The notes under the pieces are model-generated. The model did not search any database, was not told the origin of the DNA, and worked only from the letters and a program-made list of their open reading frames with translations. Of a DNA stretch of 64,000 nt, positions 2,960-61,750 are shown in pieces. Source of the DNA: Saccoglossus kowalevskii (Eukaryota > Hemichordata > Enteropneusta > Harrimaniidae); the NCBI RefSeq assembly GCF_000003605.2, contig NW_003133344.1, positions 648,748 through 712,747 on the forward strand. The letters run 5' to 3'. How positions within the stretch are numbered: the stretch's first letter is position 1; each line of letters begins with the position of its first letter. Both the position numbers and the translations under genes were made by a program.

Positions 2960-5900
2960 TGCACAAATGTTGAAAGACTACGCCGTATTTAGACCTCACC
3001 GGGGCCTGAAGAAATTCAACATGGTTAAAGGATTGACCTCTGTAAGCTAGTCACTGAACCCTACTTCTATGAAACACATTAACTGATTAGTGTTAATCCA
3101 AACTGAGAATCAATATGTTTCGTTTTTCGAAGTACATGTTTTTATCCGATCTTACGACGACCGTGCGCCCTGTTGTACAGAAATAGGGTTCTCCTAAACA
3201 AGTTTGACCTGACGTGACATTCGCCATCTTTGAAAATCATGCCTACGGAAGAAGATGTAGAGAGCGTACATTTGAGGACTGTTACTTCCTGTACGTCACA
3301 ATAATTATACTGCTTTGCAAGATAAATTACCCTTACACATCCATGAATTAAAATGTGAAATATATGCATTAATTATAGACATATTGAAAAAAGTAGTTCA
3401 AGAGGCCCACTAGTGTATTGTTGATCCAAAAACACTGACTCGTCTTGAGTTAATCTAAATCAATAATACTTCTGTACTAGGCCGTGCTTCTATTTTAAAC
3501 GAACGTAGCTATGCTAATTTTGACAGCGAAGACTTTTTCTTTCTCTCGAAAATAAGAAAGTAATAACTAAGATAAAGTGAGTACTGACTATATGTCTTCT
3601 GTTTTACAATTCCCTCACTGTAAGCTGTAACGCACTCTTCAAGACTAATTGGTCTGTTGGATCTGAATTTACGACAATCATTCAAGACATTGCGGAAGTC
3701 GTTTTCTCCTAGTATCATTTACCTAAGGTTTATCGGATTGTAGCCCTTTTTACAACAAAAGCCTCTTAATGAGTGTATAAAGTTTGATGATTAACTTTAA
3801 ATTTATGTTATTGACACAATTTTAAGACACTACGGTATATATCTCCACAAGCAGCAATGGTGGGCTTGTAACCTATACGCTATTGGATCATATCGCTCTG
3901 AATCGTAATGCTTGGGACACACCCATGACCCAGTATGAGGTATATTTGTCAGAATTGGTTGCTGGGGGTTACTAGGTGTCAGTAATCTGTTTTTATTTTT
4001 AAGTATAGTGGCAATTATGTTTATGTTTTCAAAAATGCTGTTTTGGGGGATTGGTTACTACGGCGGAGGGCTTTCTGGCTAGGGCAGGACAGACCCACCT
4101 CACTCTCCTGAGTGCCTGACTTTATTCATATGGCGTCAGGCATGTATATGTGAGGGTTTACTTGTAATTACTTGTATGCATGTCAATGAGGTCACATGAC
4201 CATTTAATCATGCACAACTCTTGTACAAGAGACTAGTACCATTAGACACACAAATCTAGGCCATGCTATTCTTAGCGTAATATCTAGAACAAAGAAGTTC
4301 TAAGCGTAGTTGCCATGGCTGTAGTCGTGGTTGCTATGATGTGATGTCATACGTAAGATGTATCTAAACGTTTATACACTAAATATAAAGAAAATTACGA
4401 ATTAGCTTTGTATGAAAAAACAATTTCAACATTCTTTTCACCAAATTAGAGGGTCTATTTCATTAATAATTCAATCCCGAAAACGTAATTTTGAACCATT
4501 CTTTAAGCAACTATGCAGTACACGTACTTCAACATAACATAACAGTTCTCAAGTTACGGATATACAGCCTTCTAATACTAACACAGGGGGAATTCCTGGC
4601 ATTTTGTTGTACATTAAAATACATAGTATATAATACAATGGCTCAAGCATATAATTTGAATACTTTTTAGTGAAATACATTCCAAAATATGACAACCCTA
4701 TTTCTTTGTATGTACATGCTCATCAAATATTTGGCACATACGTAGTACTGTAACAGTACTCGAGCTATAAGCTGAGGGATATTTATTCCTCATTTCTCAT
4801 GTATAAAACATTCCAAATTTGATTACACGGAATATCTGAGTGTGCTCTGCTTTTTCAATCTCAATTTAAAACTTTCAATGGATTTCCGTGAGTATTGTGT
4901 TCCTATCCCAGGGGGTGAATTGAATTGAACTTAATGTCGATTTCCTATTGTGAATTCGTTGTTTTTCAATAACTTACTGACAATTTTAGTATACATTGCC
5001 GGGTATATATGTAAAACATTGAATCACGTTTCAGTGAGTTCATTGATTTCTTTGACTCATGTTACTCCTGTCTCTTTTCATCCTCGTCTTTTTTGCTCCA
5101 ATTGCTTCCAATTTCAGTTCCAAAGCAGTCTTGTTTGCTTCAATTGCTCCCAATTCCAGTTTCAATGAAAGCAGCAAGTAATTTTCTAGAATGGCCGCGT
5201 GGTACTCTGACGAGAGGCTCTGAATACTTAGCAAGCGCCCTCAATTGGTGAACGTGTATGTTTGTAAATATATGTTTGCAGTTTATAATAAATCACAATT
5301 CAATTCTGTCGTAGTAGTAGTAGTGTAGTATCAACAACAAAACACGGAGGTCTTTGTCCATATTCCATTCTTAAAGAAAACGTATCTGGCTTTTACCTTA
5401 AACATCGAGCGGCAAAACTAGTATTTCTATCACAGGTTTTTCAAAAAATGCCTACATAATGTGATCCACGGAAATCACGAAAAGAACGCTGCGGGCGCTA
5501 ATTATTTGTGTGTTGTGTTAGTTTGCACTTCTGAATTATACAATCAACGACCAATTATAAAATCCAACGACAAAATTGAAATAAATGCAAAAACTGCGTA
5601 GCATAAATGCTGACTTTGAAATTGTATGTATATATATGTTATTATTTCAGTAAAGAAAAACCATAATCTGTACTTATATGTTTGTAGCGGTCTTTCAACA
5701 GAATCAACCGTAGGTAGAAACTTCAATCAGCTACGTCATGGTTAAAGTGCTCCAGAAATGTCTGGTTATTTACTAATCTGAATATGCATTGCTGCGTTTT
5801 GCTAATATACATATGCATGAATTAAAACGGTGGCGGTTTACTAATATGCATGATGTTTAGAAAAGACCAGATTTCGAGTTACCGAACTAAATGCACCGCC

Positions 5901-7164: not shown

Positions 7165-7297
7165 AGTGGTATGAGCCCTCGAGCGACGATAACAACACAC
7201 GCTAAAAACGCAAAGGATCATGGGTATACGCATGTTTGTAAACATTGACACGCTATGGCCTACTGGCGCATGCGTAGATGACGACTCTCCGCTTTAA
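7165..7297 (+). mobile_element. TTAA MITE, family A, copy 2 (left end lost)
   Basis: It shares GCGACGATAACAACACACGC, AACGCAAAGGATCATGGG and a right end GACTCTCCGCT followed by TTAA with the other copies. The left inverted end is missing or diverged. Confidence 0.72.
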
Positions 7298-8880
7298 TAC
7301 AAATTGGCTACTAGGAATATTTAGATTCTGCAACTGGGACCCAGGTTTTCATACTCGGGAATAACATAGAAACGAGACATGAGCACGCCCTCTATGGTGG
7401 AATGTATGTAATGCCCTTTAGTTATGAGAAACAGTCCCCTCCCCGGACATCGGCGAAGACAGGATCCACACAAATTCGAAATGAACTCGCGGAAGACCGA
7501 ATGGCGCGAGGAACTACATCATATGTTTATACCTCTTGCATATAAATTTGGAGTGATATTCACATATTAATTATAAATGTGTTATAATTTTTCATTTGTT
7601 TATGCAAAATTATTAAATGGATTACTTCCCATACTAGTGCAGACTATTGATTGATTGGTTTTGACAAATAAATCGAGTCAACATAGTCTGTGCAGATGGG
7701 TTGTGTAGTGGTTCATTGTGTACTTGTCAAGAACGTATTCCAATTAATATTCTGGTTTTCATCTGTCTGTAACAACACATGGTACGCAGAATTCTGATAA
7801 CACGTTGAAGGTTATGGTGGGCATATCGATAGCGAATGTAGAAAGTATGGAGTTAGTTTACAATTTGTGAAATCTGGTAATATTTAATTATTAATTCGAG
7901 TTTTGTGCCTACAAGGGCTTGCATTTCCACGCTTCTGTAGGATCGTAGAGGAAGAGATTAGTCGGAATAATTCATGCCATTCGGCCACACAACGCTATCA
8001 CATTCGAACAATTCCTCGTAACTTAGGGGGTGTTTCACGATACTACCAGCGAGCCCCCGTAAGACACTCGCCAATCTTTCGCTCACTTGCTCGACACTCA
8101 TTTGTTTTCAAGCGACGATCTGATTCAAAAGCATGCATGCTCTCTGGCAGAAATGTGGCCGTAATGGGCACACTCGACGTGCGAAAGAGACTTCGGATAT
8201 TCCGAAAGATTATCGTTACACCCCAAAGGTGGTCAGGGAATGTATGGAGGATGATGATCAAGAATTCTTCCAATTCAATCGAAGGCGGGTTAAGAGGTTT
8301 GTGAGGCATTTTGTTCTGGCGTTTTATGCGTTATATGTAGATACTGATGATTTAATTGGCAGTGGGGAATTTGCTGTTGTTACTAGTATGCGATCAGAAA
8401 TTGACAACGCACGTGATGGAAACGACTCTTGCTCGGATTTCGTGGTGAACTCTAATGTAACATTTCAATATTTGCCGTGCGACTTCCAAGTATGTGATTA
8501 CGTTGGTTTCTGACTGTCATCAGCTTATTTGCGAAGTGCTCACATAATCCGACCACAGACGCGAACGAGATGTGCATGTTTCGCTCAAATCATGATTAAA
8601 CATTGACCCACTTTTCACATTATTAATAAAACACGGATCGCCAATTGTCAAAAATATCTGTGTCGTTTTGACGCGCATTGACCTAACGATACGCCATGTT
8701 TTCTCAATGCAGTGACGTTGCGATCTTGATAGCGTAGTGTCAAACATCACCCGTGACAACACGGCCGTTAGACATAGCGTAAACACTGATGCGTTTCTGT
8801 TGATGTCGATGCGTAAAAAGAATAATAGAAGACAGAATATATATGATATTTTAAATACACGCAACTACACCGACAACGTA
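7298..8880. other. Stretch with overlapping open frames but no recognised gene
   Basis: From 7900 to 8515 three overlapping frames on both strands stay open for 88-133 codons because the sequence is GC-richer and stop-poor. None resembles a known protein to me and none shows a convincing splice context. Confidence 0.5.
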
Positions 8881-9560
8881 TATGCATGTGCGCGGCGTTA
8901 ACATGGCGGCGTACCGGTGACATCGTGTGACACGGCGACGAACGGCCAGTTTGACTATCATTTTATTTTTTCGCTTCTGCTCTGCACGATCTGTATGCGC
9001 ATCACCTGCGCGCTCACTCAGATCCGGCACATTTGGCAATTTGTTTTTATCAGCGTGTGGAACGAGAAAATGTCTGCCCATCCACGAACGTGTCTCCGCT
9101 TAGCAGACGACATTATTGCCTGACGAACATTTTTTCACGGATGTATATCACTTTTCTGATCAGGAGTGTCTAAAAGACAGTTATTTTTGCACTACAAAGC
9201 GTGATACGTTTGTGAAATAAGCAGAGGTCACACAGAAGTGCCAATGAACGTTGATATATTAGTTTTCTCCCTGTTTTACCCTGTACTCTTCATTGTATTG
9301 ATGCTGTGAGCGACAGACATCATTACGATGGATACGTGTTCCCCCGGCTGACTAATTGTAGACTGCCCATCCTCTTACACGATGGTTGTACAGCGAACTT
9401 GTTCAGCTAACTCTGCCGAGCGTATACACTTCACAAATTCATCAAACAAGTGTTCATCGGCGTGAACCGCGTGAATCTCGCGAGAGTTCACGTTGTCTAA
9501 CCCTGAATTATGGAGTGATTTCAAGTGTTTCCAACACGGCGGCAATTTATGACCGATGTG
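8881..9560 (+). promoter_or_regulatory. CpG-rich promoter-like region
   Basis: This stretch has far more CpG than its surroundings. It contains AACATGGCGGC (8901-8911), which fits the YY1-type core-promoter motif AANATGGCGGC, and TCTCGCGAGA (9476-9485), a known TATA-less promoter palindrome bound by ZBTB33-like factors in mammals. The latter sits in a larger 21-bp near-palindrome starting GTGAA and ending TTCAC. The region lies upstream of the first secure GARNL3 exon, so it is the best candidate for its promoter. This is inference from motifs only. Confidence 0.4.
8903..8916 (+). CDS. GARNL3: Candidate GARNL3 first coding exon (MAAY-R)
   Basis: An ATG in AACATGGCGGC context opens ATG GCG GCG TAC CG, followed by GT at 8917. 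It ends in phase 2, exactly what the exon at 12624 needs, and would give [15 protein letters not shown]. The surroundings are CpG-rich and look like a promoter. The donor (GTGACA) is weak and the exon is only 14 nt, so the phase match could be chance. A non-coding or different 5' exon is possible. Confidence 0.3.
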
Positions 9561-40977: not shown

Positions 40978-41054
<77 letters not shown>

Positions 41055-44000: not shown

Positions 44001-47000
44001 ATTCCATGCACATGATACCTTGAAATATACGTGCATTCGTTCAGATGTTCGTAACTTACTGTGAGGTATTCCCAGCTGTACGTCTGAATACATCCACTGT
44101 CGTCCGAAATGTAATTTCCTTCACATAGCGGTGCCGGATATTTTACTTCCACTTGAGTATTCCACTGGAAAAGTTGGCTGGATATACTTCAGTGAGATAA
44201 ACGTCAATATACCATATTTTCATTTGAATTTTATTTGTATTCCTGGGATTTAACAGTTATTAGCCTGTCGGCGACTATGTATGTACAGCGCTCAGTACTG
44301 TGATATGCATTGGCAGGAAGAACGCAATGGGAACGTGTAGTGCTCCGCTAACATATATACGCTAACATCTTTTTTAACCACAAGTATTTAGCACGTAGCC
44401 ACTGAACATTCGCCACGTGCGCCTCACACCTCACACATACATGCATTATGCACGAGACAATCACGCCCTCTGGATATCACGTGACCAGATTTGCAGGTGG
44501 CTCGAAGTCGGTCCCGGTGCCTTCGACTAATCCTATAATACTGTATATGTATATTTCAACGTTTTATTTTGTATTACATTACAGGCTTTCGGTATTTTCA
44601 GAAGAATCTGTTCCGTTATTTGGCCCACCCCTGCCTTCCCCGCCTGTCTTTAAAGATCACATACAGTTCAGAGACTTTCTTCTTGTTAAACGTGAGTATA
44701 ACTGGGAGAGGTATCCTTCACCAGGCTCCACGAAATCAAGCTATCGATTAAGATCTTTCGACGGCTAAGATCACCATTGCGATTTAATACTGAGAAATGA
44801 CACGTCTACCTACGTACATACATACGAAATGAAACCTACTTGTTTTGCAGTAATCAATGGAGAAAAAGCAGCATTCAATACACCAACCTTTGCTAACAAG
44901 CGACAGAGGACTTTGGATATGCTCATTAAAAACTTGCATCAGGAACTACTACCGGAGGTTAGCAAGGTAAGTAAGCAGTACGCGCCCGAGGTACTTGTAT
45001 TTGTAGAACCAGTATTTCTTTATTCATTCGTGAATAAAAAAACCTACAATATACGGGGATGCATGAATCCTAAATCATATTCCGCGAACGAGCCTTAATG
45101 ACTTTGTGTGGAGGGGGCAACAACGGACGTCATAGGAGATGCCAAGTGTAGAAACAACCGCGAGACATGTTTATAATTATGTCATTCCCGTATATGTCAT
45201 GTAATTTTCTTAATGATAAATCGCAGTAAACGCGATTAATATTAACAAAGTCCTTATTTCTTGGATTAAATATCGTTTAACCTTTTCAGCAAAATATGTT
45301 AAACAAGCGATCCTTCAGTGACGTCATACCGGAAGCTCAACGAGGCGGGAAAAGTAGAAAGGAGGAGCAAAGGCAGTCGGAATTCCTTAGGATAGGACAG
45401 GTAATATATGGCGTCAGTATCGATGGACAAATCTGTGTTTGATTTTATTGAGAGAATTATATTTTTTTTTGAAACTCTGAAATATTTTACGCTATAGACA
45501 ATTAGAGGCAAATGACCGGCGAGGTATCGTTGTGGGCGAGAGTGCCACGAGACTCAAATAGTGTTTCATTGTATTTGAGGAGCAAATACAAGTCTCGCAC
45601 GTGGCTCTCGTTCTCCACGAGATAACGGCGGCCATTTACAACTACTAGTACTGGTTTACTGAATATAAACGGCAACGAATGTAAAAATTGAAACTGTATA
45701 TCGCTTATGAAATACATATTTTTTATGATCGAAGTCTACTCATAAATGAAAATACCAAGAATTTATTCATTTTGCAATAAATTGTGTTGACAATATAAGG
45801 ATATTGACTTAAAAAGTTGTGGATCGCCAGGCTTATTTTCGAGAAAATAATAGTTGTATTTTAGTTGATAGTTGTCATTTTAGCACTATTATTATAACGC
45901 TTTTATCCTAGGTTCATATGAGATATTATGCTATTAATTATTTTAAAAATCTGGATTTTAAAAGTTTTCTTTAACATTGTGTTCTATGGAAGTGTTACAA
46001 AAAAATGGAGATTTTTGAAAAATGTTTCAGAAACAACTTTACTGTAACACAAACTATAAAACTATAACTATTAAAGCTGCATGATTATAGATAATAAACC
46101 AATAAATATTGTCATGCGAATTATGACCAACTTTCTAAAATTATGAGTAAGATTTTACTTTAACTCACGGTTCGAACGCGCAATGAACGCCAAAACAGCC
46201 ATTCAGTCGACCATCATACTTGACCATAATATTTGGAAGTGCTGTCACGGTAATTTCAATATTCAGTTGACGAGAATTCGGTCACTATAATGATGATGGA
46301 CAGAATTTGACAACACTCTAGATCTTTGACTTATTTATTATTATCCTAAGTGGGTTAATTACGATTCGCTTATTTCCTTAGATGTTGAAACTACAGACTA
46401 TTGTGAAAGGAGACGCTCCTACAAGTCTTGCCACCACAAGTCTGTTCAGACGCGAGGTAAGCAAGCTGAGACTGTGATTAAAATACAATCATGATATTGC
46501 GTCATTGGCGTTTGCATCACGTGTAGCCTGTTCACTCAAAGGCGATGATAGTAATAACCGCTACGCATAAACACATGCACCCCATCAGTCTTCAATTCGA
46601 AACAGAATTCAAGATAATAAAATTGGTTTGTCAGAGTAGGCTGGTTATTTATTGAATTTTCCTTCATCTTCCTGTAGCCATGGGAACCACACTGCATTAC
46701 CTCTGATTTTCCTCATCACATTGTTTGCGGCGACACATGGGGTGAGTGTAACATCGTTATTTATTCGTACTTTGAGCGGAGATTTAGCTACTATCTGCTC
46801 TGGGGTATTACTCAGCGACGCCACCTTTCATTATCCATTCCCGAGTATACAAGTTATTATCCGTACAGTAATTATACCCATCAACTCAGCGAATACCCCG
46901 GTTTACGTATTTACAGCAACAAGAAAATTTATAACTGTCAGAACCGAACAGTGACAAATTATGACATCGTGGATTTTGTTTTATAAAACACGCCATAGCA

Positions 47001-50000: not shown

Positions 50001-53000
50001 CTGAGTCACGGTGGTCGTTCGTCGTTTAAAATGAGGACAATTATTGACGGGTGACCACAGGTTAACACCAATTCAACACTGAATATTAGCGTCACGGTGA
50101 AGCCTCGGCACTAGGACTGCTGGGAGCGCGATATATAGTAACCACACATAGCTTACTGGCGCGTTTATTGTTTGAAGATTTAGTAACGCTGTCATTTTCT
50201 TGTTTTAGGAACTGTATGCAGGGGACGTGCCAATCTTAATGACACTTATTGATGGCGGGAAAGGCGACAACCAAATATGTGTCGGCTACCGGCACCAGTT
50301 TGACCTAATCAACGAAAAGAACGGCGACACGTTCCGTCTGCACCAAGTCGAGACTAGTAAGGTATTGTTTTGACAAGAACTGGCGAGAGTTTTAGTTTTG
50401 GTTTTTGTTGGCGATAGAGTAAAAACACAAGCGATAACCATATAGCGACTGTCGGGGAGAGGGGCATGTTTCTCGGTCCCTTTCAGTGTGGTGCTCCCTT
50501 GCAGTAAACAAGTTTAGTTCATCTTTTCTATAACATATTAATAATATTTCTTCTAAAATTCAGGTTAATTTGGTTACGGCATTGGATATTTATGAAGACG
50601 ACGAGGCCGAGTTATTACTATGTTATAGCCGTAAGTTTTCACAGTACTCGTATATACAATGTCGCAAACAACCTGGTGCATGGTCGGCGCAAATACTAGT
50701 AGTTTCAGAAACCGAGATTACATATATCGTTCTTTCCACTTTATCAATTTAAGTGTGTTTACCGAATCACTTTGGCGATTGACGCAAGCGTCATGTCTAC
50801 ATACAGCAACCACGTGACCATTTGCAATGACTACGCTGTTTATCTGTTGGATTTCAATAATTTGTCTTCACATTGTCCGAACGGCAGATGCCACGCACCC
50901 CTCAGGCTTGGCGATTTAATGTTACTGTGATGAACGCTGATAGTGCTGCTATTGATTATCGTCGGATATCGATCTGAATCGAGAGCATAGTAATTGATTT
51001 CCTATCAGTCATCATCATCAATCTTATATTGATCAACATCAGTCTTATTGGCCGCCGCACTTGTTTACAATCTGTGCGGGTGCGCGTGCGCAGTGACTGC
51101 TGGTTGACAAGAGCCTGACGTTGAAATTCGAAGATAAATTAACAGCGTTGTTCACTGTTGTTGTTGTTATTAAAGCGGGAGGGTCGGCACGAGAATTGAG
51201 TCCCAAGCGACGATAACAACATACGCTAAAAACGCAAGGAATCATGGGAAGAAGATTGTTTGCAAACAGTGACACGCTATGGCCATGCGCAGGTGACGAC
51301 TCCCCCGCTTTAAATATACATGTGTATGTTACTGTTAATAAGACAACATATGGGCAATGTTATCGCAGCAGATCGCTAGTCTTTATTGATCAGCGATTAC
51401 AATATATACATATGACGTCACAGTGCATTTAGGGAATAATTTAATACACATGTATGCCAAAACAAAACTAGACTTGATTCTGGTCGGCGCGTGCGTCAAT
51501 TCCATAGGCGGCCATTGCAAACATGTTTTTATTTGAAAACGTGCCAGCCGTTGGTAGCGCAATAACTGGTTAGCGCATACACAGATCGACTGTCTTGAAA
51601 TATCGCATCGTTTTTTTCAAGAAACTTTGAAACAAGAAACAGATCTATTTTGTTTACTATACATACATGATTAGGACACGTTAACACAGATTTGTGTGTG
51701 GTTATTCCTTCGTGACCTTTCAAATAAAATATTTGTCCTGTCCGTCTTTCCTATAGACGTTTCTCAGTTTAAGAAGTTGACTGGAGACCAATCATCAGAC
51801 TTTGATATCCATTGGAACTCGCCACCTACGGCTGTCGGTAAGTTTTCCATCACACATAAAGCAAATGAGACAGGTTGTGTCGGGATCACTGTCTTTCTGT
51901 AACCACGATAGCACGTCACTGGAGTACAATGCAATACTCACTGTGTCCAAAATGACACACATCACAATTCAATTCACTCTTGAACGAAGTTACTGCGTTA
52001 TCATAAAATTTTGCTGAATAATGTTTGTGGTCATCTGTGTTCCCTTCCAGTCTGTGCATTCCCGTACATACTGGCGTTCACACCTGATACTATTGAGATA
52101 CGTCTGGTTGTCAATGGCAACCTGGTAAATGAAATGACGATGCCGAGACTCAGCCTCATCACGTCAAAGGTTCGTTTCACCATTATTTGTTTTATATTTA
52201 TAATATATATGGACGTACAACCCTACATGGGGTATTGAATAGAATTGAAGAGAAAAACATTAATTGACATGGGCGCGACGCCGATAATTGTTTTCAGTCA
52301 TATTTCGTGTGAAAACAAAACATGGCGCGTATCACGTATCCAGGCCTGTGGCTAACCACGCGAACGCGCGTCACTACAGTGGGCCAGCAGTGATCTTGCG
52401 CTCGCAAGGTTGGGGCTAACTGCGTCCTCGTCGATGAATAGCTGAGAATAGCTGAAATCTGTCGGTGCGGTCGCAATTCACGTGAATCAGGCTCGTTGTT
52501 TTAAAGAAGTCACTCAAAGCTGTGATGTGTTTTTCATTCATTCATTCATTCAGTAACTCTTTACCACAATAATCATATGTGATACACTTATACGAGGCGC
52601 GGAATGTAAATTTATTATTTTGTGTATACTAGAAGAAAACGTACTAATAATTCAAAATTACGTACGTATTGGAGGCCGTGGCGTGTGTGTTTTAAAATGA
52701 TGTGTGCATTTAAAAAAAAAAAACGGCGTGACTGTGCGTTTAATGGTATGTGCTTTAAAAATCATGTGTGTATATTAAATGGCGTGGGTGTTTTAAAAAA
52801 CGTGTGTTTTAAAAATAACGTGTGAATTAAAAATGATGTGTGTCTTAAAACGGCGTGTGTGTTTACAATTATGTGTATTTAAAAAAAACGTGTGTGTTTA
52901 AAAGGACATGTGTATTTTAAAAATAATGTGTGTTTAAAAACATAACGTGTGCGCAAAAACGATGCGTGTGTTTTTAAAAATGGCGTGTGTTTAAAAACGA

Positions 53001-56000
53001 CGTCTGTGTTTTTAAAAATTGCGTGTGTTTAAAAACGACGTGCGTGTTAAAAAATGACGTGTGTGTTTTTAAAAATGGCGTGTGTTTAAAAATGAGGTGT
53101 GTGTTTAAAAATGACGTGTGTGTTTTAAAATGACGTGTGTGTTTAAAAATGACGTGTGCGTTTTTAAAAATGACGTGTGTGTTAAAAACGACGTGTGTGT
53201 TAAAAACGACGTGTGTGTTAAAAAATGACGTGTGTGTTTTTAAAAATGGCGTGTGTGAGGTCGAATGAAAATTTCGTGAGTAAAAAGAAAAAACGCGTGC
53301 ATTAACTCATTTACGCCTGGGGGCGCTGTTTTGGATGATTTTTTTTCGTGTGTGTGTGTGCAAAACAACGCGTGCGTTAACCTTTTTACGCCTGTGGGGG
53401 CGCTATTTGAGAGATTTATTTCATGTGTGTGTTAAAAAAATTGCGTGCATTAACCTATTCACGCCTGTGGAGGCGTCGTCTCAAGTGGTAGCCATTTTCG
53501 TTTGGGGATTTCTATAACGTCAATAAGATACGTAAAAAGGAACTTGTCCAGCACGTCCAGTCCAGCATTTTGCCCTATAAATTTACCGACACTGTGTATA
53601 CCTCACAGACCAGGTGATTTATTCGTGTGGTTGGTTGCTGAATACAATGCGTGGACGTCTGGTACAATGGGGCAGAACAAAGTACTCATACTGGTCTCAC
53701 AGGCGCTCAGAACATTTCTTTGATAATAAAAAATGACCTAAAGTAGGNNNNNNNNNNNNNNNNNNNNNNNNNNNNNNNNNNNNNNNNNNNNNNNNNNCAT
53801 GCTTGAGTTGTGTGAAGTGGATCGAAATACAATTTTAAAAATCGTGTTATTTTCGGACAATTTCGGTGTCACGGTGTGAACGCTTTCCTACCTTGTGTTA
53901 TCATATGAGTGGTAGGCGAATGTGCCGGCGACTGATTAACTATGCCGACCCTACTTTAGGTCATTTTTTATTATCCAAGAAACGTTCCGAGCGCCTGTGA
54001 GACCAGTACGAGTACTTTGTTCTGCCCCATTGTACTAGACGTCCTCAGCAACCACCCACACGAATAAATCAAAAGGTCGCTGAGGTATACACAGTGTCGG
54101 TAAATTTATAGAGCAGAATGAATAAAATGTTCGTGCTGGACAAGTTCCTTTTTACGTACCTTATTGACGTTAGAGAAATCCACAAACGAAAATGGCTACC
54201 ACTTGAGACGACGCCTCCACAGGCGTGAATAGGTTAATGCACGCGATTTTTTTAACACACACACGAAAAAAAATCTCTCAAATAGCGCCCCCACAGGCGT
54301 AAAAAGGTTAACGCACGCGTTTTTTTGCACACACACACGAATAAAAAATCTATTCAAAACAGCGCCCCCACAGGCGTAAATAAGTTAATGCACGCGTTTT
54401 TTTCTTTTTACACACACGAAATTTTCATTCGACCTCACACACGCCATTTTTAAAAACACACACGTCATTTTTTAACACACACGTCGTTTTTAACACACAC
54501 GTCATTTTTAAAAACACACACGTCATTTTTAAACACACACGTCATTTTTAAACACACGTCATTTTTAAAAACACACACGTCATTTTTTTAACACGCACGT
54601 CGTTTTTAAACACACGCCATTTTTAAAAACACACACGTCGTTTTTAACACACACGTCATTTTTAAAAACACACACGTCATTTTTAAACACACGTCATTTT
54701 TTTAACACGCACGTCGTTTTTAAACACACGCCATTTTTAAAAACACACACATCGTTTTTAAACACACGCATCGTTTTTACACACACGTCATTTTTAAACA
54801 CACACACGTGTTTTTAAACACACGTCATTTTTAAAAACACACACGTCGTTTTTAAACACACGCATCGTTTTTACACACACATTATTTTTAAAATACACAT
54901 GGCCTTTTAAACACACACATTTTTTTTAAATACACATAATTGTAAACACACACGTCATTTTAAGACACACATCATTTTTAATTCACACGTCATTTTTAAA
55001 ACACACGTTTTTTAAAACACCCACGCCATTTAATATACACACATGATTTTTTTAAAGCACATACCATTAAACGCACAGTCACGCCGTTTTTTTAAAATGC
55101 ACACATCATTTTAAAACACACACACCACGGCCTCCAATACGTACGTAATTTTGAATTATTAGTACGTTTTCTTCTAGTATACACAAAATAATAAATTTAC
55201 ATTCCGCGCCTCGTACACTTACAATACAGCATTTTCACCGTAACCTTGTATTCGTGTCGTATTTCTATTCTCAGTCTGACTTATACTTTACAACGTGTGC
55301 TGGCGAGACTGGGAACTCAAGTGGAAAGGAGAATGGTCAAAGCCGTCCACTCAGTCCCCTTGGTTCGCCTACGTCATCGGGTGAGTTTACTGCTCTAACT
55401 CGCTTCGCGTTATCAAAATTGGTAGCGTGCGCGAGTTCGTACCGAGCAGAGTAATCAAGCAGTTCGTATACCATGGTAGTGCATGATGTGCCCAGTGTGC
55501 AACACATACGTGGGATATTATTAGAGAGGAGGCAAGGGGGTAGCTGGTACAGTTTTACGGGAAATAAAAAGGGCTTTTTACAATTTACCAGGGAAAAAAA
55601 GACGTTTTTACAGTTTACAGTGAAAATTGAATTTTGCAGTGAAATGTGTCATCTAGTCGTTTTACAGTTTCGAAAATGTAATTTCCCTGGATTGTTCTTT
55701 ACGACTTTTTTTATTTTGGATGTAAATTCTTGTACGTACCGAGAAAAATGACACATTTTTACAGTGTACGAAAAAAATATTTGATTGATTACGTTGTACG
55801 TCTAGCCTGTGATTACAGAATTACGGAATTTATTTTTTCAATTTACGTTGTACGAACAAAAAAAATATTGCAATTACGTTGAACGAAAATAATCCCCTTA
55901 TTAGAATATGCATGAATTTGAAATATCTCTATAGCAGTTACACACCCGGGTCTATTGCCTTTTTCAAATGTCCATGTTTTATCGTTCCTCTTTCAGGGCC

Positions 56001-57779: not shown

Positions 57780-58665
57780 TGATGTCACATCTATGTGACC
57801 GTGTCCTGTAGATGTGGATGTCATGCCTCAGAATAATCATCGAAGAGTTCTGTGGATATCACATCTTAGTGGGCCTGTCATGTTGATGTCCCCTCTCTTA
57901 TCTGCAGTTTCTTGTGGATGGCTTATCCCAGTGGCCGTGTCCTGTGGATATAACATCTCAATGGACGCGTCTTCTTGATGTCACGTGTCAGTTGGCGTGT
58001 CATATGGCTGTCACATCTCAATGGACGCGTCGTCTTGATGTCACGTGTCAAATTGGTGTCGCATCTCAGTGGATGTGTCCTGTGTATGTCACGTAGCAGT
58101 TGGCGTGTCATATGGGTGTCACATCTCAGTGGACGTGTCTTGTGGATGTCACGTAACAGTTGGCGTGTCATATGAGTGTCACATCTCAGTGGATGTGTCC
58201 TGGGGATGCCACGTACGAGTTGACGTGTCATATGGGTGTCACATCTCAGTGGATGTGTCCTGTGGATGCCATGTAACAGTTGGCGTGCCATATGGGTGTC
58301 ACATCTCAGTGGATGTGTCCCGTGGATGTCACGTAACAGTTGGCGTGTCATATGGGTGTCACATCTCAGTTGATGTGTCCTGCGGATGTCACGTAGCAGT
58401 TGGCGTGTCATATGGGTGTCACATCTCAGTGGATGTGTCCTGTGGATGTCACGTAACAGTTGGCGTGTCAAATGGGTGTCACATCTCAGTGGAAGTGTCC
58501 AGTGGATGTCACGTAACAGTTGGCGTGTCATATGTGTGTCACATCTCAGTGTATCTTGTAGATGTCAAATCTCGGCGACCATGACCTCTGGATATCTCAT
58601 CTCGGTAGGTGTGTCTTGTGGATGTCACATCTTAATTGGCGTGTAATGTACATGTTACATCTCAG
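57780..58665. repeat. 60-bp minisatellite, open on both strands
   Basis: Roughly 11 good copies between about 57960 and 58560, with more degenerate edges, repeat every 60 bp. The unit contains GTCACATCTCAGTGGATGTG, TCCTGTGGATGTCACGTAAC and AGTTGGCGTGTCATATGGGT. Because 60 is a multiple of three, the + strand encodes a repeated CHISVDVSCGCHVTVGVSYG and the minus strand MTRQLLRDIHRTHPLRCDTH. It lies about 1 kb past the GARNL3 stop. I read it as a non-coding satellite. Confidence 0.88.
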
Positions 58666-59876: not shown

Positions 59877-60022
59877 TTAAAGCGTCACCTGCGCACACAC
59901 GGGAATTGAGTCCCAACCGACGATAACAACACACTCTAAAACGCAAAGGCTCAAGGGTAGACGCTTGTTTGACACACTGTTACCATCTGACGCATGCACA
60001 GGTGACGACTCTCCTGCTTTAA
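59877..60022 (+). mobile_element. TTAA MITE, family A, copy 4 (3' flank)
   Basis: TTAA at 59877-59880 and 60019-60022 bound the ends AGCGTCACCTGCGC and GACTCTCCTGCT. The core GACGATAACAACACACTC and AACGCAAAGGCTCAAGGG match copies 1-3. A short internal deletion removes part of the GTTTGTAAACA stretch. Confidence 0.78.
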
Positions 60023-61660
60023 CATATTTGGTAAACTGTTATAATAAAGTAGTGATTGGTACACGTAATTCCATACGCAAATTTGAAGAACTCACCGACA
60101 TATTGATAACAGCTATTCTCATCAATACGTTTTCGAGCGCAGTCTTCCGAACTGACGCTCTTGCCGACCAGAAATAGATCATTGTTTTCACGTCTTTTCA
60201 TTCCTACAGCTAGGCCAAAGTCATAGAAACACAATTACGGTGTCTTATATTTTCGCTACATTATTATTAATAAGATCCTTTTAATTCATGTTGGTACACG
60301 AAAGTATATACATTATTTAGGAGGAAAACAATTTTTCAACTCGTCTGTGATAACAATTGACATTTTTTCAGCCATTTAGGAAGGGTACAAAATTGGCCAA
60401 AAGTTGATTTTTGTACTGTAATTTCTGAAATTCTGTTCTGAAAGTTTGTAAATGCCTTGCAACGAATAGTCGTTGGTTTATAACAATGTATTGTTCGGAA
60501 TTTACTTAATGGAAACAAATATTACAAGCGAATTCCTCGTGCTTCCATTGTTGTGAAATGTTGCGTCGCCCATTTGAATTTTGACTGAAAAATCGAACTA
60601 GAAACAGATCTTAAGTGAGATTTGCAAAACATTTGCAAACGAAAGACTATTATATTAAAAACTTGTGCTACCCTATAATATGTCCATTTAATAATTGTTG
60701 TATCTCAAATTCTTACTTATTATGACTTCCTGGTTTCATTTAAATTACCATATACACATAAACTGCCACATATACATAAATTACTACATACACATGTAAT
60801 ATTTCTCTCTCTCAAAGTTAAAGTTCCGTCAAAGTTAAATAGCTTATTTTCATCTTAACCCAATCATAATTATCCAATCATAATTCGTTTCTCAGGTTAC
60901 AAAAATAAGTTTTATTATGAAAAAAACTTTGATTCCTCTAATTTATATATATATATATCCCGCCCACATATGATGTGATTTGCTTTATTTGAGGTAATTT
61001 GAGGCAGACTTTCGTCAAATTGTATGACTCATTTCGCAACCTGCACGAAAATTGCTCACTTGTTGTGTATTGTGCATTGCAACTTCTCTGGAGGCTTTTC
61101 ATGTACTTTGTATTGTCCTTGGGTTACGACATATTAGTAGTATACGAAATATGGTATATGGTCTTCTTTTGCTGGCAAGGACCCAATTTGTGTTGTAAAA
61201 TGTGCAGAATGATATTTTTCCCCAAAACCACGTGGGAGTTGATATGAGAGAGTTGGCGATTTTAACAACAAATAGTATGACATGTTTATAATAAATGCCT
61301 GAATAATAATGGACAATATGTCATGTGACCTAATCAATCATGCTTGCACAATTCCCAGAGACACATAGTAAGATAAACAATCTGATATGAAAGTGCTAAT
61401 ACTTTTCACAATTTTAGTCTGGCATATGGCCGTATTAATTATGAATACAATAATAAATAAGTCGTGACATGACATAATACAGTTGAGCCCGTCTTCAATG
61501 TCAATTCTGCCGAAGGTACAACTAAAGATATTTAACGCTGGTCGGTTCGTTGTGATATTCGATTCCCCAGTTTTTTATTGTGATTAATATAGATTTTTTT
61601 CTGATTTAAAGATTCAACATGTATTCACAGACTGGTTGAAAATGTTTCCAAACTGTCCTC

Positions 61661-61750
<90 letters not shown>

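Follow-up and report, generated by a model that had tools for sequence, protein, structure and literature searches.

We analysed a 64,000-nucleotide stretch of the genome of the hemichordate Saccoglossus kowalevskii (contig NW_003133344.1, positions 648,748 to 712,747; C2501 in our contig numbering), hereafter the window, and a foldback element at its positions 52591-55215. The element belongs to a dispersed family with fixed TA..TA ends and 6-bp target-site duplications, and in one copy of this family a gene with a helix-turn-helix (HTH) exon and a match to the Pfam model rva_4 lies directly inside the end and its tandem-repeat array. We consider it quite probable that the element is a non-autonomous foldback DNA transposon from a recently active family, moved by cut-and-paste by an IS3EU-type DDE transposase with an rva_4 core and an N-terminal HTH. 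A first-pass annotation of the window had described a foldback element here and interpreted it as Drosophila-type or Mutator-like; the observation was confirmed, and the interpretation was partly supported.

Structure, copies and target sites of the element

The two long arms (52591-53747 and 53950-55215) pair with each other (e.g., 129 nucleotides at 98%, 242 at 93% and 141 at 96% complementarity), and alignment and Tandem Repeats Finder (TRF) agreed with the earlier description of them as nested series of 19-bp and 75-bp repeats. Going inward, a 90-bp unique end is followed in each arm by an array of 19-bp units, roughly 2.5 units of 75 bp and, innermost, a further unique stretch. In the left arm (+ strand), these are the outer end at 52591..52680, which starts TACGAGGCGCGGAATGTAAA... 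and whose first 20 bases served as the probe for genome-wide searches; the array of the unit TGTGTTTAAAAATGACGTG at 52681..53257 (TRF 52749-53257, 27 copies); the 75-bp units at 53258..53475 (TRF 53288-53475); and the inner arm at 53476..53747, the final ~51 bp of which (53697-53747) are the inverted 3' end of a dispersed repeat that we call X. The right arm (- strand) comprises the inner arm at 53950..54211, which overlaps the end of X, about 2.5 units of 75 bp at 54212..54435 (TRF 54212-54403), the 19-bp-unit array at 54436..55125 (TRF 54436-55043, 32 copies) and the outer end at 55126..55215, identical to the left end at 90 of 90 bases. The left edge thus reads TACGAGG and the right edge CCTCGTA, and the window has two occurrences of the terminal 16-mer, against a chance expectation of 0.02. 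Four matches to this 16-mer in viral contigs had unrelated flanks and were taken as chance, and scanning the window with Rfam and for tRNAs gave no lead.

Between the arms, the 3' part of X stands in direct orientation (53798..54000, + strand), forming the loop and the start of the right arm, and the palindrome axis is covered by an assembly gap of 50 N (53748..53797). The other gap of the window is exactly equal in size, so 50 N is probably a placeholder length; subtraction against the gap-free centre of another copy, locus L025, suggests that about 79 bases are hidden there. Long arms consisting for the most part of tandem repeats around a short middle were found in the window, and the middle itself is readable in L025.

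The genome searched comprised 572 Mb in 4,830 contigs. The outer 101 bp had at least 42 matches (the best 40 of 69 candidates scored), and, allowing two mismatches at most, we found the terminal 20-mer at 62 sites, of which 32 are forward and 30 are reverse (reversed control, 0). The first-pass annotation had proposed a transposed family and named a lack of further copies as what would speak against it, and these sites bear the proposal out. The fetched loci contained 63 ends, of which 62 were readable, with T at position 1 in 58, A at position 2 in 59 and A at position 5 in all 62, and each of the 12 flanking positions carried at most 0.29 bit. Since T and A are fixed at the edge while the flanks are unconserved, the terminal TA is element sequence. 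Left out of these counts were the end at L013:8670, which runs into N, L070 (a duplicate of L046), L005-L012 (duplicates of later loci) and two partial matches whose start lies within the end, in L057 and L060, the main match of L060 being retained. Doubtful ends kept among the 62 were an inner match at position 658 of L018 and five ends located within an arm, behind array sequence (L022, L023, L026, L033 and L060). End sequences of this kind, in which ...GTGTGTG or ...GTGTGTA is followed by TACGAGG, were seen at L022:9090 and 9497, L023:8389 and 8717, L026:6553 and 6709, L033:1562 and 1774 and L060:116; they may reflect nested insertion or arm expansion.

Because the element begins at the T of TACGAGG, the target-site duplication is 6 bp long and reads CACTTA on the left (52585..52590) and on the right (55216..55221). 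The first-pass annotation had located the foldback correctly but started it at 52593 instead of 52591, and its 10-bp duplication gives way to this shorter one. We fetched all eight contigs that have a forward and then a reverse terminal-20-mer site at element distance. Among eight both-ended places, from which the end pair of L018 was left out, the 6-bp duplication was perfect in five (window, CACTTA; L026, GTAGTG; L028, TCAGTA; L033, TGAGAT; L040, CATTTG), had one mismatch in one (L055, CCCGCC/TCCGCC) and was absent from two, and mispaired flanks matched in 0 of 56 control combinations. A 10-bp frame had one mismatch in the window and 3, 2, 3, 2, 3, 6 and 6 mismatches at the other seven places; on comparing the eight, frames of 8, 9 and 10 bp were rejected. 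End-to-end lengths were 170 bp (L040), 757 bp (L056), 955 bp (L055), 1,385 bp (L028), 1,488 bp (L013), 1,659 bp (L033), 2,625 bp (window) and 5,323 bp (L026), those of the window, L013 and L026 including assembly gaps.

These data also bear on whether the structure is a transposon at all. An error of assembly, or an inverted duplication that arose locally within a GARNL3 intron, would suit an axis that lies inside an assembly gap, yet in L025 the two inner arms and the centre between them are gap-free, and 62 dispersed sites with unrelated flanks and 6-bp duplications refute such an origin, to which we give next to no credence.

Next, we compared the two arms with each other. Over compared bases, they were 100% identical in the outer 90 bp, 97.0%, 94.5% and 98.7% in the outer, middle and inner parts of the array (the outer and middle parts with large length differences); the 75-bp units agreed at 96.8% and the inner part of the arm at 91.6%. 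The contrast between near-identical ends and a diverged interior that had been reported earlier thus held (7 differences in 326 compared bases of the outer 330 bp versus 22 in 261 of the inner part; Fisher P value = 0.0008). Among the matches listed to the outer 101 bp, at least eight, both window ends included, were 100% identical over 91 to 101 matched bases; the inner arms of copies were 88 to 98% identical in pairwise comparisons. Such a pattern would fit selection for transposable ends or a recent spread of already diverged interiors, and the near-identity of the ends points to recent enough activity of the family.

A linked transposase gene and the probable superfamily of the element

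To place the family, we used Pfam rva_4 (PF24764), which we take to be a likely model for IS3EU-type transposases. A genome search with it, in which all 78 candidates were scored, gave 59 matches, the strongest with an E value of 3e-70. Three contigs had both an rva_4 match and a family end, and the two lay within 5 kb of each other on two of these contigs and about 1 Mb apart on the third (C2070). On contig C470 (locus L029), a family end (position 9338), a 19-bp-type array (8762-9159), an HTH exon (8093-8782; HTH_7 above the cut-off) and an rva_4 exon (4725-5183; E value, 3e-55) follow one another on the same strand. The end and array were 87.7% identical to positions 1-614 of the window arm over 619 columns, and about 0.01 rva_4 matches would be expected within 5 kb inward, in the C470 orientation, for 62 ends. 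On our reading, the joint between the two exons is bordered by GT..AG and falls within the codon for the first catalytic D; the core has the catalytic D and E with 34 residues between them; and the first catalytic D lies at about residue 165 if the exon's first Met is taken as the start (in IS3EU, 100 to 300 residues from the N terminus). No HHCC-like motif was found in the three C470 open frames joined end to end, and the rva_4 exon, searched against the PDB, gave one weak, differently named match. The likely intron of this gene contains a 26-bp minisatellite of 58 copies (L029:5349-6867).

Complete IS3EU families are described in passages of PMC10045372 as always having TA..TA termini and usually 6-bp duplications, and the same passages place GingerRoot in the IS3EU lineage and the transposases of both without HHCC. 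The present family resembles IS3EU/GingerRoot in its TA..TA termini and its 6-bp duplications, and the linked C470 gene does so in its integrase-like DDE core without an HHCC-like motif and its N-terminal HTH. Given the C470 end and array beside the HTH/rva_4 gene, an IS3EU-type transposase is likely to be the mover of the foldback family. In fungi, IS3EU elements have TAYGG..CCRTA ends, 6-bp duplications and terminal inverted repeats (TIRs) "longer than 30 bp," as an excerpt of PMC12730594 puts it; the arms here are, in contrast, tandem-repeat structures of about 1.2 kb.

Several observations weigh against this assignment. The identity of rva_4 with the IS3EU transposase is our inference, and the fifth base of the ends departs from the fungal pattern (TACGA here versus TAYGG). 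The C470 copy looks broken, as its reading frame shifts within exon 2; its far end is hidden, contig bases 1-5504 being N; and its HTH exon had one full genome match, namely itself, and nine weaker ones. Together, the unseen far end, the single HTH exon and the frame change mean that no intact autonomous copy was found. Nearness of an end to an rva_4 gene can mislead, because on C231 (L046) the two are close by accident. Among the both-ended places, L056 (three differences) and L013 (four) lack a 6-bp duplication, and in a check that the first-pass annotation had suggested, no empty site for the window copy was found in the assembly, the flanks of that copy matching their own places only; an empty GARNL3 allele would read ...GATACACTTACAATAC... 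with a single CACTTA. At the centre of the element, the sequence of L073 differs at the axis as if bases had been deleted; the axis of L028 is a different one, and this copy gave no match to the loop. Lastly, PMC10045372, in the part that deals with IS256 and MuDR, gives 4 to 10 bp for the two jointly, so that 6 bp alone does not exclude Mutator.

That latitude would allow a Mutator-like or Drosophila foldback (FB) affiliation, as proposed in the first-pass annotation, and the architecture of FB and Tetris, long TIRs made of tandem units, is shared; most foldbacks have been assigned to Mutator (PMC4079207), a weak Mutator match (PF20700) is present at 21.5-22 kb of the window, and the 10-bp frame of the window copy has one mismatch only. 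This frame fails with 2 to 6 mismatches at the seven other both-ended places, however, TA is fixed at the element edge, a signature that together with 6-bp duplications is that of IS3EU, and the sole gene directly inside a family end, on C470, is of the HTH and rva_4 type. Seven open frames of L015, L016, L019 and L031 matched no Pfam family, these copies being partly readable and no genome-wide search for Mutator-like elements having been made. We therefore regard a Mutator or FB affiliation as very unlikely.

The duplication of Drosophila FB is 9 bp long. Sea-urchin TU elements resemble the present family in their long arms with an outer domain of short tandem units and differ in their duplication, 8 bp versus 6 bp here. 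Tetris has outer flanking, tandem-repeat and inner domains, a variable non-coding middle and rearranged copies (PMC4079207), and our family shares with Tetris and FB this outer-tandem-inner layout, the variable non-coding middle and the rearranged copies. Tetris duplications are 8 to 10 bp long, in contrast to 6 bp here, and Tetris is without an identified transposase (PMC4079207). Galileo, of the P superfamily in Drosophila, also has foldback-like long TIRs with tandem repeats; it differs in its P-type transposase with a THAP domain, where the present family has TA..TA ends, 6-bp duplications and, in one copy, a linked HTH and rva_4 gene.

The element could instead belong to some other superfamily of TIR elements that makes 6-bp duplications, the C470 transposase lying beside it by chance, for example after an insertion next to an rva_4 gene. 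There is one directly linked gene, the distal end of the C470 copy is missing, and the accidental proximity of a family end and an rva_4 gene on C231 shows how such a neighborhood can come about; on C470, however, array and coding exon abut in transposon orientation, TA..TA and 6 bp match IS3EU independently of the C470 gene, and 19-22-bp arrays stand at the same place in other rva_4 genes of the genome. On balance, we think a chance neighborhood of this kind unlikely. C231 (L046) had itself been considered as an autonomous partner and was rejected as a rearranged foldback fragment 3.2 kb from an rva_4 gene of a lineage 27% identical to the C470 core.

If the IS3EU-type assignment is right, a transposase of the C470 lineage would act in trans on the foldbacks by cut-and-paste. 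It would most likely recognise the 90-bp ends and might also bind at many points along the 19-bp arrays, cutting before the terminal TA and inserting with a 6-bp duplication. The array units may serve as extra binding sites for the transposase, by analogy with Galileo, in which, according to a portion of PMC3688188, the THAP domain of the transposase was measured to bind sites in the TIR tandem repeats. Among the open PMC papers searched, "IS3EU" and "foldback" occurred together only in PMC8268682, where "foldback" stands solely in the reference list, and "IS3EU" never occurred with "fold-back," Repbase reports being outside the scope of this search. A link of IS3EU to tandem repeats has in itself been described before, since two oyster satellite DNAs have been labelled DNA/IS3EU (in a section of PMC8268682) and half of Tribolium TCAST10 has been linked to IS3EU (in a section of PMC5844308). 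If true, IS3EU-type ends with an rva_4 transposase would add another superfamily to the foldbacks and would support the proposal that foldback architecture arises repeatedly in different lineages.

Arrays at other transposase genes and the probable origin of the arms

We then looked into the surroundings of other rva_4 genes, fetching nine of the 59 matches. In seven of these nine places, a tandem array of 19-22-bp units lay at most about 0.6 kb upstream of the rva_4 gene; the other two were unreadable upstream (the sequence of C862 starts with the gene, and on C3161 there is N at 110 bp from it). In addition to C470, arrays were present on C231 (6304-6535; 21 bp, 11 copies, within an open frame that continues into the rva_4 gene), C746 (22 bp, 8 copies), C3022 (22 bp, 2.7 copies, at the contig end and weak), C3128 and C4704 (21 bp, 23 and 16 copies, one lineage) and C2916 (21 bp, 7 copies, with only the transposase core recognised). 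A comparable array was found in 33 of 533 unmasked 700-bp windows of the fetched DNA, a background drawn from the window and from loci chosen for family ends and thus not random. An inverted distal partner array was sought in C746 and C862, and none was seen in either. In the present foldback family the array could be traced as part of inverted arms; in the other lineages, only the transposase side was seen.

At the inner end of the arms, the inner 272 bp had at least 43 genome matches (the best 40 of 92 candidates scored), and X, defined by the last ~50 bp of the inner arm and the centre of L025, had at least 89 (the best 40 of 124 candidates scored). Among the matches listed, X occurred outside the foldback family at 34 or more places, at 78 to 86% identity and one-sided. 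L075 and L076 reveal a longer repeat of which X makes up the 3' end (..GAGCGCCTGTGA), and a copy of X lies at L025:8213-8435. In the foldback centre, an inverted stretch of ~104 bp of the X end joins X directly with an overlap of 8 bases, and this junction of inverted and direct X was identical in L025, L015 and L074, that is, in three of the four copies readable there. The X-bearing palindrome thus probably goes back to one event, in which an arm that carried a truncated X was copied back onto itself about an axis inside X, and then spread. Inversions of the foldback type by way of single-strand hairpins have been reported from yeast (PMC7467729).

A tree of nine inner arms, two of them of unassigned side, had support values of at most 54%, and the left and right inner arms of the window (91.6%) resembled each other no more than they did most inner arms from elsewhere in the family. 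Neither this tree nor the pairwise identities supported a conversion that would homogenise the inner arms within a single copy.

One possible scenario, which we offer tentatively and hold to be less than probable, is that IS3EU-type transposons of this genome generally carry 19-22-bp arrays at the end next to the transposase gene, as multi-site binding arms, and that foldbacks are born when an X-bearing arm is copied back. An ordinary end would thereby turn into a two-armed non-autonomous element, and the shared X junction would be a fossil of the event. The position of the axis inside a dispersed repeat would then directly document the birth of a foldback, and the arrays beside seven transposase genes make the idea of multi-site binding testable.

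The host gene and other repeats in the window

The first-pass annotation had placed the element inside GARNL3, a gene whose domain order is RapGAP and then CNH. Upstream of the element we found a Rap_GAP-like exon fragment (44577..44699, + strand; E value, 6.5e-5, below the Pfam cut-off) and, in five of eight frames chosen by eye, collinear CNH fragments on the + strand, the other three frames being without a match. The fragments cover CNH profile positions 33-97 at 48.0 kb (E value, 3e-4), 81-119 at 48.7 kb (0.13), 123-155 at 50.2 kb (0.03), 165-189 at 50.5 kb (0.056) and, at the end of the domain, 216-254 at 52.05 kb (52050..52166, + strand; 1.2e-6). Since the RapGAP fragment precedes the CNH fragments, the host gene is consistent with a GARNL3-like gene, and to this extent the placement fits, but only the last CNH fragment passes the Pfam cut-off. 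A genome-wide CNH search listed contig C4338 alone, the GARNL3-like gene of the window not being among its matches. The element starts about 425 bp past the last CNH fragment, and an intronic position in the host gene is therefore most likely.

Elsewhere in the window, the Mutator-like transposase match PF20700 (21496-21999, - strand; E value, 9.5e-4) is below the cut-off, and its open frame enters the second 50-N gap. A dispersed repeat of about 100 to 130 bp has four window copies that are 76 to 86% alike (2597-2700, 7172-7300, 51188-51317 and 59898-60027). A 60-bp minisatellite of about 10 copies occupies 57953-58551, with both strands open as translated repeats, and two microsatellites run without interruption, AAT x25 at 40978-41053 and TA x43 at 61664-61749.

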